From: a virus
DNA: 24,097 nt
IMG/VR virus record: IMGVR_UViG_3300027898_000040
Span: 1 to 24,097 of that record
Strand: one strand, 5' to 3'
This document shows positions 4,770 to 15,180 of the stretch, piece after piece. The notes beneath the pieces are model-generated. The model was not told where the DNA came from. It worked only from the letters and a program-made list of their open reading frames with translations, and made no database searches. A program made the translations under genes and the position numbers. Numbering within the stretch: position 1 is the first letter of the stretch; each line of letters opens with the position of its first letter.

Positions 4770-7115
4770 ATGGCTGCAGTTTATGCAAACAGCTCCAACC
4801 AGATTGCTGCGTTGAAAGAGCTTTATACCGACGATATCTAGTCTCTTTGTCGTCGTGACTTCATGTTGAATTGAAAGAGTACATGAAGGATTTGGTAGGA
4901 CGGAAGTCTTGTATGCCAAATTAAAATCTCCGTGTATCGGTGAAGGCTGAAACGCTAATACCGAGGGCTAGAGACAGGATGTCTCAGTTCGTAACGACTA
5001 GGCCACATAGATTGGCCCACGAGCCGGGGAATTGCAAAAACCTTGCAATAAAATATAGTCTGAGCTAACATAAAGGATATATGAAAACTTGTACCAGATG
5101 CAAAAATACTAAAGAATTCACAGAGTTTATAAAAAACTCTAGGTATTCTGACGGGTATGCAACTTGGTGCAAAGAGTGCAAAAAAGAACATGCTAGGCAA
5201 AACCCTCAAATTCACGCTAATTGGGTAAAAAAGAACAAAAAGCGGTCAGATGAGATCAAAGCTAAGTATGTTGCAGAAAACAAAGGTAAGGTAAAAGAAG
5301 CTAAACGCCGTTGGTCAAAAGCAAACCCTAAAAAAGAACTTGCTAGAACCAGAAAATACCAGGCGTCTAAACTTCAAGCTACTCCAAAGTGGTTGACAAA
5401 AGAGCAGATTAAACAGATGGAAACATTCTACGTTAACTGCCCTAAAGGATATCACGTTGACCACATTCGGCCCTTGCAAGGAAAGAACGAGCGAGGGTTA
5501 CATGTACCTTGGAATCTGCAGTATCTTCCCGCCTCTGAAAATCTTCGTAAATCCAATAAATGTTAGAAGTGTGGGATAAAGAGCCTGCACGATAACAAAA
5601 ACCTAGTAAAATCACTAGGTTGACGGTACAAAGAGAACCCATTCCTGGCCCTGGTGCCAAAAAACGAATCGGCTGATGGATTTGCCGGTAAGTATATCCC
5701 CGTGCCACTTGAGTACGGCACGCCCCAAGGTCGCGCGCACACATTTTCGAATGCTCAAAGCCAACAAACTGCTACTGCACTTGTTAGCTTCTTCGTTTAT
5801 GTGATCAGCGACTACCAACTGGTAACTATCACTAACTTGTTGATGGAACAGACAAAATCAAACGCAGGAGCGTTTGTTGATGCTGCCAAACTGCAAGTTG
5901 ATGGTGGTTTCCGAAACTTGACAAACAACATCGCTTTTGAGTTGTTCGGTGATGGAACTGCTACACGCGGTATCTCGTCTTCGTCTTCTACTCAAGCTAC
6001 TACTACCGTTGGTGGAACCGTTCTGCCATTGACAAACGCTCAACAGATCGTTGCGTTTGAGGTTGGTATGTTGTTGGTTGCTTCTAGCTCTGCTGGTGGC
6101 GCTCCTTCTTCTGACACTGTGCTGATTACTGCGGTTGACCGCGCTAACGGTATTGTGTACGGTACAGCTTCTGCTTCCACACTGTCCAGCAACTGGGCAA
6201 TTGGTTCAGGATCTGCTTACCTGTCAGTATCGGGCGATATCCCATCTACAGGTGCTTCTAGCACTTCTAGCTTCCAAGCTCTGTCAGGATTGGCTGCTTG
6301 GATTCCTGTAACTACACCTAGCGGCTCGGACAGCTTCTGGGGTGTTAACCGTTCTGCTGATCCTACTCGTTTGGCTGGATTGCGTTACAACGCACAATCT
6401 TTGACAATCGAAGAAGGTATCACTAACGCACTTGCATTCCTGAACCGTGAGGGTGGAAAACCTGACCTTTGCGTCATGGATTTCGCTTCTTACGCTGCTC
6501 TGGTTAATGCTTTGGGCGCTAAAGTGCAGTACGTTCAAGTTAACCACGACGAAGTTGAAGTAGCTTTCGAAGGTATCACCTTCCAATCTGCTTATGGCCG
6601 CGTCACTGTGTTGGCTGACCGCTCTTGCCCTCCACAAACAGCTTACCTGTTGACTATGTCAACTTGGAAACTGCGTTCGTTGGGTAAAGTTCCTCACATT
6701 CTCACTTATGGAATGGAAGGTTTGGAAGGTCTGCGAACTGGTTCTGCAGATGCTTTGGAGATCCGAATTGGCTGTCATAACGAGCAGTTAGCTGCTTAAC
6801 CGTAGTGGCCAATTTCAGATCAAGTAATTTGACTACGGAAACTTGATCTGCTCGGCTAAACTTGTGGCCGAGTAAAACTCCCTCTGATTGACTTGGAACC
6901 CCTTCGAACAAAAAGAAGAAGGGCAACAAGGGGCAAGCGAAAGCAGCCTGAACGACTAAGTGAGAGAGCGCCGAAAGGTGATGCGATAGTCTGAACACCA
7001 GCAATACATAAAACTGGTGAGGAGAATCCGAAGAGGTTTTCCCGCACAATGAAAGTTGTGTCATAAAGTAACAGATTTGCCAGGTTGGAACTGTGTAGTT
7101 CAACTGAGTGCTTAA
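4770..7115 (+). CDS. Major capsid protein, split gene (two group I introns plus a candidate bypass)
   Basis: Coding pieces: 4770-4838 (starts MAAVYANSS and runs to YTDDI before UAG), about 4877-4896 (EYMKDLV), 5626-6773 (VYKENPFLALVPKNES to ALEIRIG) and about 7075-7115 (LPGWNCVVQLSA). Joined this way they give about 425 residues, the usual size for a podovirus HK97-fold major capsid. The VYKENPF, FAGKYIPVP and PGWN stretches fit my recollection of such capsids, and the gene follows the scaffold. Frames agree: removal of 4897-5625 joins GGT to GTAC as L-V-Y, and removal of 6774-7074 joins GGC-T to AT as G-Y. The 5' piece is in a different frame from the second and is separated by 38-56 nt with a UAG, which intron splicing does not explain. 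A strong ribosome site (AAAAGGAA) precedes the ATG. The GTG at 5654 and the TAA at 6797 are not the true ends. Confidence 0.85.
4829..4891 (+). other. Candidate translational bypass element in the capsid gene
   Basis: The capsid frame stops at UAG 4839-4841 and resumes in another frame by 4877-4896. Hairpin 1 pairs CGACGATA (4829-4836) with TGTCGTCG (4848-4855), eight pairs including one U-G, and places the UAG in its loop. Hairpin 2 pairs CTTCATG (4859-4865) with CATGAAG (4882-4888). Matching GAT codons lie in the stem of hairpin 1 (4833-4835) and immediately after hairpin 2 (4889-4891), the latter in the downstream frame. A stop codon in a take-off hairpin with matched take-off and landing codons resembles the T4 gene 60 bypass of 50 nt. 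That mechanism is inference; a shorter skip retaining EYMKD, reinitiation at ATG 4883, or an assembly error remain possible. Confidence 0.45.
4897..5625 (+). ncRNA. Group I self-splicing intron 1 in the capsid gene
   Basis: The 5' exon ends in U (T4896) and the intron ends in G (G5625). P1 pairs exon ATTTGGT (4890-4896) with GCCAAAT (4915-4921), with a U-G wobble at the splice site. P10 pairs 3' exon GTACAA (5626-5631) with TTGTAT (4909-4914), directly adjacent to P1, so both splice sites are independently supported. P7 is GACTA (4996-5000) with TAGTC (5056-5060), inside recognisable R-like (AACGACTAGG) and S-like (AATATAGTCTGAG) core segments. P8 is ATTGCAA/TTGCAAT (5031-5037/5043-5049), and a P9-type stem CCTAGT/ACTAGG lies at 5602-5619. 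An HNH gene fills the space between core and 3' end. Splicing joins the capsid codons for L-V-Y in frame. Confidence 0.93.
5081..5566 (+). CDS. Intron-encoded HNH homing endonuclease
   Basis: This is a 161-residue protein inside group I intron 1. The N-terminus has a zinc-binding CxxC pair (C4/C7 and C30/C33). A long, very basic linker follows (about 35-100). The C-terminal HNH motif has H125 and DH at 127-128 (GYHVDHIRPL), then PWNLQYLP and SENLRKSNK as the His-Asn-Asn part. It would cut the intronless capsid allele and promote intron homing. AAAGGA (5072-5077) precedes the ATG. The gene starts after the P7/P8 core and ends before the P9-type stem, so it does not disturb the ribozyme. All motif residues appear intact, suggesting an active nuclease. 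Confidence 0.9.
   Translation: MKTCTRCKNTKEFTEFIKNSRYSDGYATWCKECKKEHARQNPQIHANWVKKNKKRSDEIKAKYVAENKGKVKEAKRRWSKANPKKELARTRKYQASKLQATPKWLTKEQIKQMETFYVNCPKGYHVDHIRPLQGKNERGLHVPWNLQYLPASENLRKSNKC
6774..7074 (+). ncRNA. ORF-less group I intron 2 in the capsid gene
   Basis: P1 pairs exon AATTGGCT (6766-6773) with GGCCAATT (6807-6814), with U6773-G6807 as the splice-site wobble. P2 is CAGATCAAG/CTTGATCTG (6816-6824/6842-6850), and a further stem CTCGGC/GCCGAG lies at 6851-6872. P7 is GACTA (6954-6958) with TAGTC (6987-6991) in a core reading AACGACTAAG and GCGATAGTCTGAAC. P8 has a GAAA loop (CGCC/GGTG near 6969-6980). P9 is CACCAG/CTGGTG (6996-7001/7014-7019). The 3' site must follow a G in frame: G7074 (exon product RIGYLPGWN, weak 3-pair P10) or G7068 (RIGLTDLPGWN). 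I list 7074, but this end is uncertain by 6 nt. No endonuclease gene fits inside. Confidence 0.85.
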
Positions 7116-7588: not shown

Positions 7589-8902
7589 ATGAAAGCGTTT
7601 AATACTATGCAACAAAAGGTAGTTCAAGAGGCGTCTAAATCTTTGGACAGCACAAAAAAAGCTCTTATCTACATGGCAACCGGTACGGGCAAAACCGAGA
7701 CAGCTATTAAACTGTTACAAAAAAGAGGTTACGAAAAAGTACTCTGGCTTACCCATCAGGATGAGCTGGCTAAACAGAGCTTTGAGCGCTTCAACAAGCT
7801 TGGTGTTTTTGATACATCAATTTATTCGGGACAAATTAAAGATTCTAGCGGGGCCGTTGTGGTGGCCACTATTCAAACTATTAGTAAAATTAAACATTTA
7901 AGTAGGTTTTCCAAGTCTCAATTTGACGCAATAGTTGTCGATGAATGTCATCACGCGCCTGCGGCCACTTGGGAAAAAACCATTAAGCATTTTGAGTGCG
8001 ATCGCATTGGACTCACAGCCACTCCTTTTCGCCCAGATAACAAGTACGAAAAGATCTTCGATGTTTTTGGCCAACCCGTGGGCAACATTTCTTTTGACCT
8101 AGCGGTTAAGAATAAATTTTTGGCAAAACCTGTTTCAAGCCTTATTTTGACAGATAGCGTAATTAAAGGATTTACTAATGTTAACAAAGAGTTAACCTCT
8201 TTTCAGCTAGACAAATTATATTCTTCTATGGAAAGAAACAAGATTATTGTTAAAGCTTACCAGGAAGAAGGCAGAAATGTACTTTTGGCTAAAAAAATCA
8301 AGCCTAAAGCCGTTGTGTTTTGCATAAATGTTGCCCACGCCAGACTTATGGCCGATTTGTTTCAGACCAATGGTTTGTCCGCCGCTTTCGTGTGCGGGGA
8401 TTCGGCGCAACAATCTGCATTTGAGCGAGAGCTTATAATGACTAAATTTAGGACTTCAGATAAAATTGAGCTTATTTGCGCGGTTAACATATTTAACGAA
8501 GGCGTGGACATCCCAGAAGCCAACATCTGTATGATGCTCCGACCTACAGGCAGCAACATCATTTACCAGCAGCAGGTGGGCAGGGTGGCTAGAAACAACG
8601 GAGGGAAGAAAAAGTTTTTCATTGTGCTAGATTTTGTAGATAACTGCACAAAGGGGTTTAGCACTTATATGTCTACTAATTTGACTAAAGGCGGTAGCCA
8701 AGGAGTTAAAGTAGTTTTTAAATATTTACGCGATCCGGACAGCATCGCTGTAAAAAAACGAGTTGAAGATCTTATGTTAAAAGTACGCGAGTTTGAGGCT
8801 AGCATGTGGCGCAGCGTTGAAGTTAACAAACAAAATGCAAAAGATCATTTAGATGCTCTAAAAGAAGGAAAAGTCTTAGTTTTTAAGAAAAGGATGACGT
8901 AA
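7589..8902 (+). CDS. SF2 DEAD/DEAH-type helicase (type III restriction/UvsW-like)
   Basis: This 437-residue protein carries a full SF2 set. The Walker A motif ATGTGKT is at 30-36 and motif Ia WLTHQDELA follows. Walker B is DECH at 118-121 and motif III TATP is at 143-146. A second RecA domain begins near residue 220 with KAVVFCINVAHA, then ICAVNIFNEGVDIPEA (motif V), and motif VI is QQQVGRVARN at about 325-335. It probably unwinds or remodels DNA (branch migration or replication restart, as for T4 UvsW), but the substrate cannot be read from the sequence. The stop overlaps the next start (TAATG at 8900-8904). The C-terminal 60 residues are basic and helical. Confidence 0.92.
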   Translation: MKAFNTMQQKVVQEASKSLDSTKKALIYMATGTGKTETAIKLLQKRGYEKVLWLTHQDELAKQSFERFNKLGVFDTSIYSGQIKDSSGAVVVATIQTISKIKHLSRFSKSQFDAIVVDECHHAPAATWEKTIKHFECDRIGLTATPFRPDNKYEKIFDVFGQPVGNISFDLAVKNKFLAKPVSSLILTDSVIKGFTNVNKELTSFQLDKLYSSMERNKIIVKAYQEEGRNVLLAKKIKPKAVVFCINVAHARLMADLFQTNGLSAAFVCGDSAQQSAFERELIMTKFRTSDKIELICAVNIFNEGVDIPEANICMMLRPTGSNIIYQQQVGRVARNNGGKKKFFIVLDFVDNCTKGFSTYMSTNLTKGGSQGVKVVFKYLRDPDSIAVKKRVEDLMLKVREFEASMWRSVEVNKQNAKDHLDALKEGKVLVFKKRMT

Positions 8903-9630
8903 TGGAAAAAATAAAAGCTTCGGCTTATCAAAAACACAAGGTTAAGCAGCAGCTAAAAAAATATTTTACTGATTCCGAGTTGAAAGAACAAGGACTACAA
9001 ATACGTCAAAAAAGAAACAAAAAAGATTGTATTTTAGACGCTAAAAAATATAAAACAGTTAGAGATTGGGAAAAAGCAAATCCAAACGCCGTGCAGTGGG
9101 CAAGAAAAATGAAAATTATGGACGCTTGTACTTCTCACATGAGTAGCTTGAGAACAAATTGGACTTTAAAAATTTTATTGGATTTTTTAAAAATTAAAAA
9201 ATATAAAAATTTTTCAGAATGGGCTAAAAAAAGTTCCGGTTCTTACAACAAAGCTATGGAAAATGGGTGGCTGCCCGAAGCTGCTAAGATAGTTCCAAAT
9301 AAAAGAAATCGTTATATGCGCGTGGAGGATATTAAAGAAAATGCAAAAAAATATACACGTATCTCTGATTGGACACAGAACGGAAACAATGTGTATTATA
9401 GAAGGGCGCTTAAATTAGGAATTGTAAAAGAGATGACTTTGCATATGCAAAGAATTAGCAAGATTACGAAAGAAGTAGTAAATTTAGACACGGGTGAAAT
9501 TTTTTTTAGCATAGAATCGGCTTCAAAAAGCGTAAAAGTTCGAGCGCAAGGGATTTCTGGAGTTTTAAGAGGCGTTAAAAAAACAGCTGGCGGCTTTCGT
9601 TGGGCATATTTGGAGCACAAAAATGTATAA
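8902..9630 (+). CDS. Nuclease-less NUMOD1-type DNA-binding protein with three modular repeats
   Basis: This 242-residue protein has three copies of a module commonly attached to homing endonucleases, at about 46-80 (KKYKTVRDWEKANP to CTSHM), 94-128 (KKYKNFSEWAKK to NGWLPEAAK) and 146-182 (KKYTRISDWTQN to LHM). A NUMOD1-like domain follows at about 192-236 (VNLDTGEIFFSIESAS to GGFRWAYLEH). No HNH, GIY-YIG or other nuclease motif is present, so this is a DNA-binding array without a cutter. The DNA is visibly more A/T-rich than the flanking methyltransferase and structural genes, a sign of separate origin. It overlaps the helicase by TAATG and shares N-terminal and C-terminal domains with the next gene. 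It could be a remnant of a homing endonuclease or a sequence-specific regulator. Confidence 0.8.
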   Translation: MEKIKASAYQKHKVKQQLKKYFTDSELKEQGLQIRQKRNKKDCILDAKKYKTVRDWEKANPNAVQWARKMKIMDACTSHMSSLRTNWTLKILLDFLKIKKYKNFSEWAKKSSGSYNKAMENGWLPEAAKIVPNKRNRYMRVEDIKENAKKYTRISDWTQNGNNVYYRRALKLGIVKEMTLHMQRISKITKEVVNLDTGEIFFSIESASKSVKVRAQGISGVLRGVKKTAGGFRWAYLEHKNV

Positions 9631-10048
9631 AATTGAAGCAAATAAACATCAAAAAACTAAAATAATTAAACAACTTAGGTCGGTTTTAGGAGACGATTTT
9701 CTTTATGAAAACGGCGTAAAAATTAACGGTTATTGGAATTTAAATAGATGCAAGGCCAGCGCGAGTAAATTTACAACCAAAGAGGTTTGGCGTACAACGT
9801 GTCACGGAGCCTACAAAGCGGCGTATAAAAACGGATGGTTTGACCAATGCTGTGCCCACATGTCTACACATCGAAACAACACCAAGCTTACCGTTAACCT
9901 TGACACCGGGGAAATTTTTGATTCTCAAACAAAAGCCGCACATCAGTATGGCGTAAGTCCCACTTCCATTAGAGTTGCCATGCTTTACAATAGGAGATCC
10001 GCCGGCTGCAGGTGGGCTTATTTTTCTCAGTCCGAGACAACAAAATGA
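9623..10048 (+). CDS. Shorter paralogue: single repeat plus NUMOD1 DNA-binding protein
   Basis: This 141-residue protein has the same plan as its upstream neighbour but with one module. There is a shared N-terminal segment (YKIEANKHQKTKIIKQL versus KIKASAYQKHKVKQQL), one KASASKFTTKEVWRTT to GWFDQCCAHM module (43-80) and a NUMOD1-like domain (89-133, VNLDTGEIFDSQTKAA to RWAYFS). No nuclease motif is seen. It overlaps the previous gene by 8 nt, so the two are coupled and probably arose by duplication with loss or gain of repeats. Function is unknown; DNA binding is inferred from the domains. Confidence 0.78.
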   Translation: MYKIEANKHQKTKIIKQLRSVLGDDFLYENGVKINGYWNLNRCKASASKFTTKEVWRTTCHGAYKAAYKNGWFDQCCAHMSTHRNNTKLTVNLDTGEIFDSQTKAAHQYGVSPTSIRVAMLYNRRSAGCRWAYFSQSETTK

Positions 10049-14051: not shown

Positions 14052-14686
14052 TTGATCAATTTGGCCTTATTGTAGAAACTAACGGAGACGGTGGCGACTG
14101 CCCCTGCAGGTGCGGTGTTGTTATAGCTCACCGCAGTCAGACCAGTGATCCGACGTCTTTAGTCAAGGCAACGCAGTTTAAACTGATGCCCTCGAATGGT
14201 GTCTACTATCGCTACCCTACGACCTATAACCAAACCAACGATTTTAGCCGCGACCAAGCGTCTAGGTTGATGCTAGGTTATGGGTTTGCGGGGTTTGGCT
14301 CCTACGTCTCGGAGTATTACACCAAACTTACTAAGAACTGGTTTAGACACCAGAACGGCGATTTTATGGGCACCGGGGAGCCCGGCAATATCATCAGGAG
14401 CACAAAGTCCTGGTATCTATACCCTTTGCTTCTATTGCTAGACGTCAAATTTTTAGTCGATATCATTGCCTATAAGTGGCAGGGTTGGGACTACGACAAC
14501 CTGTTTATCGCAGACCTTTACTTTGCTAAGATCCGCTATCCAACGCCCTTTGCGTTTATAGCCAGGAAGCTGTATAACAAAGGGCTTGCAGCGGAGCGAG
14601 TAACTAAAAACCTAGACAGCGTAAACGGTAACAACGGGTGCGCAGAAGCTTTGGAGGCTAATTTATGGTTCTTGACCCAAATGTAG
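14048..14686 (+). CDS. Conserved phage hypothetical protein with FSRDQ motif (212 aa)
   Basis: A strong ribosome site, GGAGGAGG (14034-14041), lies inside the end of the preceding gene. The sequence opens with VETNGDGGDCPCRCGVVIAH, followed by YYRYPTTYNQTNDFSRDQASR. I recall this NGDGGD...DFSRDQ pattern from phage proteins of unknown function, with Asp/Cys/Arg residues that could be catalytic. A hydrophobic segment, SWYLYPLLLLLDVKFLVDII, near 120-140 could touch the membrane. The last 22 nt overlap the HNH gene. No function is assigned. Confidence 0.72.
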   Translation: MIDQFGLIVETNGDGGDCPCRCGVVIAHRSQTSDPTSLVKATQFKLMPSNGVYYRYPTTYNQTNDFSRDQASRLMLGYGFAGFGSYVSEYYTKLTKNWFRHQNGDFMGTGEPGNIIRSTKSWYLYPLLLLLDVKFLVDIIAYKWQGWDYDNLFIADLYFAKIRYPTPFAFIARKLYNKGLAAERVTKNLDSVNGNNGCAEALEANLWFLTQM

Positions 14687-15180
14687 AAACGTGGATATTT
14701 TTGGACGACTATCCTGACTATGAGATCAGCTCGTTTGGCAGAATCCGCCGAGGGGAAAAAATTAACCGCCAGACCGTAACTCGAGATGGTTACCTGGCGG
14801 TATGCATTAGAAACAAGCAGAAACAGACGCACAACACCTTGGCGACGCATGTGCTGGTGGCAAAGACGTTTATCGGGCCTAACCCAGGGGGCTCTCGAGA
14901 GTTTAGGGTAGTGCACCTGGACGGAGATCTTAAAAACAACCGCGTCAATAACCTTGAATGGCAACCCTGGATTTACCGCAACCAGTTTTCGGGTAAACTT
15001 GTCCAAACTCAAGCCACTATTGTAAAAAATAGACAACTTGGGCCTAAAGAGATGGCCATAGTCGTCTCAAATCCAGACAAAGCCACGACTTTCTTGGCAG
15101 CGTATTTGCAAGTGCCTATTGCACAGATCGAAAAAGTTAGACCAAAGGCTAAAGTTTTTGTTAATTATGCCGATGAGTAA
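14665..15180 (+). CDS. Free-standing NUMOD4-HNH homing endonuclease
   Basis: This 171-residue protein has NUMOD4 at about 10-55 (WIFLDDYPDYEISSFGRIRR, with the usual W..l.dYp.YeiS..GriR pattern). An HNH_3-type core follows: H62 in LATHVLVAKTFI, H84 in VVHLDGDLKNNRVNNLEW, with Asn91-92 and 95-96. The C-terminal 60 residues (LGPKEMAIVVSN and FLAAYLQVPIAQIEKVRP) read as a helix-turn-helix that could read DNA. It would cut DNA at a homing site and spread among phages. It is not in an intron; it overlaps the previous gene by 22 nt and sits in a packed small-gene cluster, consistent with insertion between genes. Confidence 0.88.
   Translation: MVLDPNVETWIFLDDYPDYEISSFGRIRRGEKINRQTVTRDGYLAVCIRNKQKQTHNTLATHVLVAKTFIGPNPGGSREFRVVHLDGDLKNNRVNNLEWQPWIYRNQFSGKLVQTQATIVKNRQLGPKEMAIVVSNPDKATTFLAAYLQVPIAQIEKVRPKAKVFVNYADE

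Follow-up and report, generated by a model that had tools for sequence, protein, structure and literature searches.

Background

A natural group I intron is assumed to bring its own ribozyme, and we know of no natural group I intron that uses the core of another intron. Group I introns of about 206 nt without an open reading frame (ORF) are known from phages (PMC12363816), and trans-excision-splicing ribozymes excise segments of up to 28 nt by means of P1, P9.0 and P10 (PMC4094466). The locus described here is the capsid gene of an IMG/VR virus record of 24,097 bases, analysed at its full length (the window), in which two full introns alternate with two much shorter inserts. Its pairings, compared with those of related loci, indicate that phages probably carry guide-only, coreless introns that depend, via a bridge helix, on a neighbouring core, so that one ribozyme would serve two introns.

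Capsid gene organization and spliced product

A protein profile was built from intronless relatives and aligned to the DNA by dynamic programming, inserts being allowed in any phase. This spliced alignment revealed four inserts (38, 729, 58 and 222 nt) in the capsid gene of the window (Table 1). Excision of all four leaves a capsid of 432 amino acids (N-terminus MAAVYANSSNQIAALKELYTDDKEYMKDLVYKENPF, C-terminus EIRIGYYGNLICSAPGWNCVVQLSA), a form that matches the protein of the intronless relatives; the called capsid ORF (5654-6799) is an artefact of the inserts. Exon skipping from the 5' site of the first mini-intron to the 3' site of the full intron was ruled out, as exon 2 is conserved coding sequence that is present in intronless relatives. 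Searches of the annotated phage collection with the capsid exon and with intron B returned no relative of either.

Table 1. Features of the interrupted capsid gene (positions in the window)
Feature	Position	Strand	Elements or basis
Capsid exon 1 (MAAVYANSSNQIAALKELYTDD)	4770-4835	+	spliced profile alignment; spliced product
Mini-intron A, 38 nt, coreless	4836-4873	+	P10' 4843-4848, P1' 4849-4855, PB' 4859-4866, terminal G 4873
Capsid exon 2 (KEYMKDL + GT)	4874-4896	+	P10 strand 4874-4879, PB strand 4881-4888, intron B P1 strand 4889-4896
Full group I intron B, 729 nt	4897-5625	+	P10' 4909-4914, P1' 4915-4922, P3 4927-4932/5025-5030, P7 4996-5000/5056-5060
HNH/endonuclease VII-like ORF, 161 aa, within intron B	5081-5566	+	
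Capsid exon 3	5626-6773	+	spliced profile alignment; spliced product
Mini-intron C, 58 nt	6774-6831	+	P10' 6800-6806, P1' 6807-6815, PB' 6816-6825, terminal G 6831
Capsid exon 4 (YYGNLICSA)	6832-6857	+	P10 strand 6832-6838, PB strand 6841-6850, intron D P1 strand 6851-6857
Full group I intron D, 222 nt, no ORF	6858-7079	+	P1' 6866-6872, P3 6878-6884/6962-6968, P7 6954-6958/6987-6991
Capsid exon 5 (PGWNCVVQLSA, stop TAA 7113-7115)	7080-7115	+	spliced profile alignment; spliced product

Full introns B and D

An earlier, sequence-only reading of the window had placed a group I intron with an HNH gene at the site of intron B, both splice sites being fixed by P1 and P10. These helices were found as described: P1 pairs GATTTGGT with GCCAAATT over eight pairs, of which the seven originally given are a subset, and P10 pairs GTACAA (5626-5631) with TTGTAT over six pairs. 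The profile alignment arrived at the same two boundaries without using P1 or P10, and the U preceding the 5' site and the terminal (omega) G fit the aligned boundaries without shift. The L-V-Y junction predicted by that reading is also correct and in frame; however, removal of intron B alone leaves the capsid gene broken by three more inserts, and the 5' exon that it had assumed is itself interrupted by the 38-nt insert, which has a UAG in frame shortly after it begins. Intronless alleles, for which a search had been proposed, exist at the exact site of intron B, the junction D-L-V/Y-K-E-N-P (the slash marking the insertion site) being uninterrupted in 54 intronless capsid loci.

A covariance-model search, proposed in the same place, did not assign the intron: the Rfam scan of the window matched neither intron B nor intron D as group I, even at E<=10, and group I identity was therefore tested by covariation. 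In 49 introns with the core signature of intron B, P3 is located mostly 4-5 nt ahead of a fixed CGG, and its two strands covary: the 5' strand takes 35 different forms, and 6.6 pairs are formed on average, versus a mean of at most 5.4 when the partners are swapped. For P7, four compensated types were seen. P3 (UCUCCG/CGGGGA) and P7 (GACUA/UAGUC) of intron B lie within these covarying helices, which bears out the group I class. For intron D, a 28-sequence alignment, in which P3-P8 were named by hand, had 96.8% of its cells paired and contained 118 two-sided changes, versus 37 after shuffling and no more than 31 with slid partners; its boundaries were aligned at 6857-7078 and moved by one position by the junction rule (Table 1). 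Intron D is assigned, on this covariation, to the group I introns without an ORF. Both introns possess P1 with a U.G pair at the 5' site, P10, a terminal G and, as judged by covariation (P3-P8 in intron D, P3 and P7 in intron B), a catalytic core with the P3/P7 pseudoknot. On these features they are phage group I introns, an already known kind.

The HNH gene of intron B turned out to be an intact ORF that resembles the endonuclease VII/HNH families. Of its closest relatives, that of L003 (68% identity) resides in an intron at this very site and that of L010 (57%) in an intron elsewhere in the gene, positions that would fit homing of intron B. With its intact ORF, the family match and the presence of intronless alleles, intron B is a candidate HNH homing intron, for which the earlier reading had suggested recent or active homing. 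Elsewhere in the window, a NUMOD4-HNH gene lies at 14665-15180, and at 8902-10048 an ORF with a weak match to an I-HmuI NUMOD-like domain precedes a similar ORF that has no match in Pfam. Cores related to those of introns B and D are frequent in viral contigs and may be widely missed in annotation. A class-2 intron core separates two annotated P22 coat fragments in a phage genome on deposit (L364; MW202674.1, 16544-17089), and an annotated hypothetical protein overlies it.

Mini-introns in the capsid family

Twenty-six inserts of 30-63 nt, hereafter mini-introns, were collected in this capsid family, the spliced protein-profile alignment placing them at eight sites. Each is preceded by U and ends in G, the junction being nearly always only 0-1 nt from the position given by the protein alignment; since U and terminal G were required when refining the junctions, they are not independent evidence, and only their closeness to the aligned position is informative. 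Each mini-intron contains a bipartite guide, in which one half forms P10 with the first bases of the following exon and the adjoining half, beginning with G, forms P1 with the last bases of the preceding one. P1 and/or P10 pairing with its own exons was found for every mini-intron, those at column 30 (after DLV-U; L020, L032-L034) forming P1 only with a bulge. In mini-intron A, the guide halves CUCUUU and GUCGUCG pair with AAAGAG and CGACGAU, respectively. Mini-introns A and C thus have the preceding U, the terminal G and the P1/P10 guide of a group I intron, and the P3-P8 core is absent from both, their 38 and 58 nt being taken up by the guides and a bridge strand. Neither is long enough for a core, which by definition excludes them from the group I introns; they resemble the substrate part of one.

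The mini-introns track full introns. In every capsid locus with a mini-intron, a full intron follows about 20-130 nt downstream (23-26 nt in the two pairs of the window), and none of the 54 intronless capsid loci has a mini-intron. A search for mini-less alleles of the full intron at column 54 returned only two contigs, each with a mini-intron elsewhere. Three sites are occupied by a full intron in one phage and a mini-intron in another, namely column 29 (full in the window and L003, mini in L093), column 50 (full in L020, L033 and L042, mini in L031 and L093) and column 406 (full in L093, mini in the window). This suggests that the mini-introns may be core-deleted introns. Many of these loci share ancestry and the counts are therefore not independent events; the stronger argument is their recurrence at different sites, with different partner introns and in several gene families.

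The bridge helix

The remainder of the mini-intron, beyond the P1/P10 guide, pairs with exon 2. This helix between the mini-intron tail and the exon, the bridge helix (PB), stops where P1 of the downstream full intron (P1(full)) starts. Mini-intron A forms PB as CUUCAUGU/ACAUGAAG, and the exon continues with GAUUUGGU, which forms P1 of intron B; PB of mini-intron C is CAGAUCAAGU/ACUUGAUCUG and is followed by CUCGGCU, which forms P1 of intron D. The PB' arm of mini-intron A was also recovered blind as an inverted repeat. In 21 of the 26 mini-introns, the best helix between tail and exon lies at most 3 nt from P1(full), and the PB site ranks first of 51-93 positions in L020, L032-L035, L188 and L192. 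Mini-introns after D22 pair with different exon stretches, following the full intron (column 29 in the window, column 35 in L010, farther in L188). In the column-45 group, the mini-intron strand tends toward the best match with the synonymous variant of its own exon, a comparison that is informative only within the group, as the strands were selected as helices. Furthermore, unconstrained folds of seven segments gave P1 of the mini-intron (P1(mini)), PB and P1(full) as adjacent stems (z-scores of -3.3 to -5.7), the P1(mini) register of L016 being seen in the centroid only.

Five of the 26 mini-introns fit the bridge rule poorly (L039, both of L093, L016 at column 28, and L201). In L039 (3244-3281 and 3394), the tail of the mini-intron pairs close to its own 3' site (TTTCATG/CATGAAA) instead of next to the full intron, which is distant; the partner that it once had may have been lost. 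The capsid gene of L093 (1911-5249) contains two mini-introns off the bridge rule together with several full introns, possibly a dependency chain.

Among the full introns of the capsid family, 24 of the 29 without P2 are accompanied by a mini-intron, versus one of the ten with P2; this tally covers the capsid cases read by eye, an automatic P2 classifier having been discarded because it mistook P1(full) for P2. Full introns lacking both P2 and a mini-intron occur in L031 (2492-3209, column 31), L024 (5061-5276, column 400) and L093 (4975-5191, column 406).

Mini-introns in other genes and genomes

A scan based on structure only (P1, P10 and PB) was carried out around 188 unique full introns. 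It recovered the known capsid cases and found new mini-introns, with scores of 43-58; in three rounds of shuffling over 126 introns, the maxima were 34.5, 36.0 and 44.5. An earlier scan with P1 and P10 but without the bridge had been weak versus shuffles; inclusion of PB raised the specificity. For the mini-introns of L302 (also L365), L229 and L240, the spliced product matches a Pfam phage capsid family and a PHROG major head protein; that of L249 (also L445) lies in a P22 coat gene; and those of L248 and L315 lie in a gene reading YYPP/WNN and FQP/IEQARWNQSNID. Removal of the mini-intron restores the reading frame in each of these cases. Uninterrupted alleles confirm two of the predicted junctions: the reading of L366, ISFYGTYVILNEQVTLQNQDPVLNEAAARLGV, equals that of L302 after splicing, and 52 of the 80 P22 coat loci have no interruption at the L249 sites. 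L315 (4658-5062) apparently contains two tandem pairs of mini-intron and full intron within one gene. In bacterial and archaeal genomes, there were 24 class-2 pattern matches, several of them not intron-like; none had a mini-intron alongside or a score above 27.

Proposed mechanism

From the boundaries, the helices, the tracking of partner introns, the group I identity of the full introns and the repair of the reading frame, all of which can be read from the DNA, we infer splicing itself, its agent and its order. Quite probably, the mini-introns are coreless group I introns that are excised in cis by the core of the neighbouring full intron. The mini-intron would supply the guide parts only: its P1 strand, which pairs with the last bases of the upstream exon and places a U.G pair at the cut, its P10 strand, which pairs with the start of the next exon, and the terminal G. 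Since PB ends at the start of P1(full), P1(mini), PB and P1(full) would lie side by side, and P1(mini), with PB standing in for P2, would dock into the core of the full intron. A guanosine would then cut the 5' site of the mini-intron, and the freed exon would attack behind its terminal G, joining exons 1 and 2. PB would thereby be lost and P1(full) released, upon which the full intron would splice itself out. That the mini-intron would use the neighbouring core first, with PB as P2, is proposed because PB ties it to P1(full) and most partner introns lack P2; moreover, a full intron that left first would deprive the mini-intron of its core. Against excision in this way stands that P1(full) would have to vacate the docking site.

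Alternative explanations

A mini-intron could also be a group I-like intron at the RNA level whose splicing takes place in trans, on free intron RNA or a core elsewhere. P1, P10 and a terminal G require just a core, and engineered group I ribozymes do cut out segments in trans; however, each mini-intron is bound by PB to P1 of its own downstream intron, and no capsid mini-intron without such an intron was found, which makes trans splicing unlikely.

Much more doubtful is that the ribosome skips the mini-intron by programmed bypassing, as in T4 gene 60 and the mitochondrial byps, the RNA remaining uncut there. The gap is of similar size, stem-loops occur on either side, and a stop soon follows the upstream exon: 24-25 of the 26 mini-introns have an in-frame stop within 18 nt (25 with automatic frame choice, which misassigned the frame of the mini-intron at 6774 in the window), versus about nine expected from shuffles. 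As happens in other phage introns, early stops would also exclude ribosomes from the guides. Matched take-off and landing codons, by which bypassing is recognized and which are GGA at both positions in gene 60, occur in none of the 26 mini-introns. Neither would bypassing predict P10 pairing, a terminal G or a bridge adjoining P1 of a group I intron, and intronless genes never have a mini-intron.

Similarly improbable is a single regulated unit of mini-intron and full intron, in which the mini-intron would chiefly provide P2 and its removal would be partial or of secondary importance. This would account for the lack of P2 in most of the associated full introns and for PB occupying the place where P2 would be, but several introns without P2 have no mini-intron either (L031 column 31, L024 column 400 and L093 column 406), and the coding frame requires complete removal of the mini-intron. 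Lastly, assembly errors, decayed remnants or dead alleles, with the gene unused or restarting at the ATG at 4881 shortly past mini-intron A (GAAAGAG being located ahead of it), are very improbable, as similar inserts are found at various sites, in many independent contigs and in no fewer than three families of head proteins, the exons are conserved, the guides match the exons, and re-initiation would be of no use for the 3'-terminal mini-intron C.

Implications

Under excision by the neighbouring core, the mini-introns appear to have lost their own ribozyme and to use that of a neighbour, through pairing that is readable in the sequence. If true, existing genomes show a transition from self-splicing introns to dependent introns with a shared core, a step that has been postulated for spliceosomal introns and of which, to our knowledge, no group I case is known. 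This would be the group I counterpart to degenerate group II introns that perhaps became core-dependent en route to the spliceosome. In practice, it would mean that gene callers split essential phage genes where inserts of 30-60 nt lie, none of which is reported by the Rfam scan used.

Comparison with known systems

In the open-access library searched, which most subscription papers lie outside, no natural group I intron dependent on the core of another was found. We could not find a known kind that would include the dependent mini-introns, the closest being engineered trans-excision-splicing ribozymes and spliceozymes. Introns B and D themselves resemble described phage group I introns, HNH-bearing or ORF-less (PMC12363816), in P1, P10, the P3-P8 core, the terminal G and their location in structural genes. 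In contrast to these, the mini-introns are coreless, and B and D would each have a dependent mini-intron 23-26 nt upstream that is tied to their P1. The euglenid group III introns and twintrons (PMC3534033) are also short and degenerate and have lost their own catalytic parts, but belong to the group II lineage, whereas the mini-introns would follow group I chemistry and have a partner core that can be identified. T4 gene 60 (PMC11194080) likewise has a non-coding gap of about 50 nt with an early stop and stem-loops; the mini-introns differ from it in lacking matched codons and in having group I guide pairings and partner introns. The trans-excision-splicing ribozymes and spliceozymes (PMC4094466) share with the present system a group I core that would remove a segment other than itself via P1 and P10. 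Those are engineered and intermolecular, with the guide in the ribozyme, whereas the mini-introns hold the guide in the segment to be removed and would be linked to the ribozyme in cis by the bridge helix.
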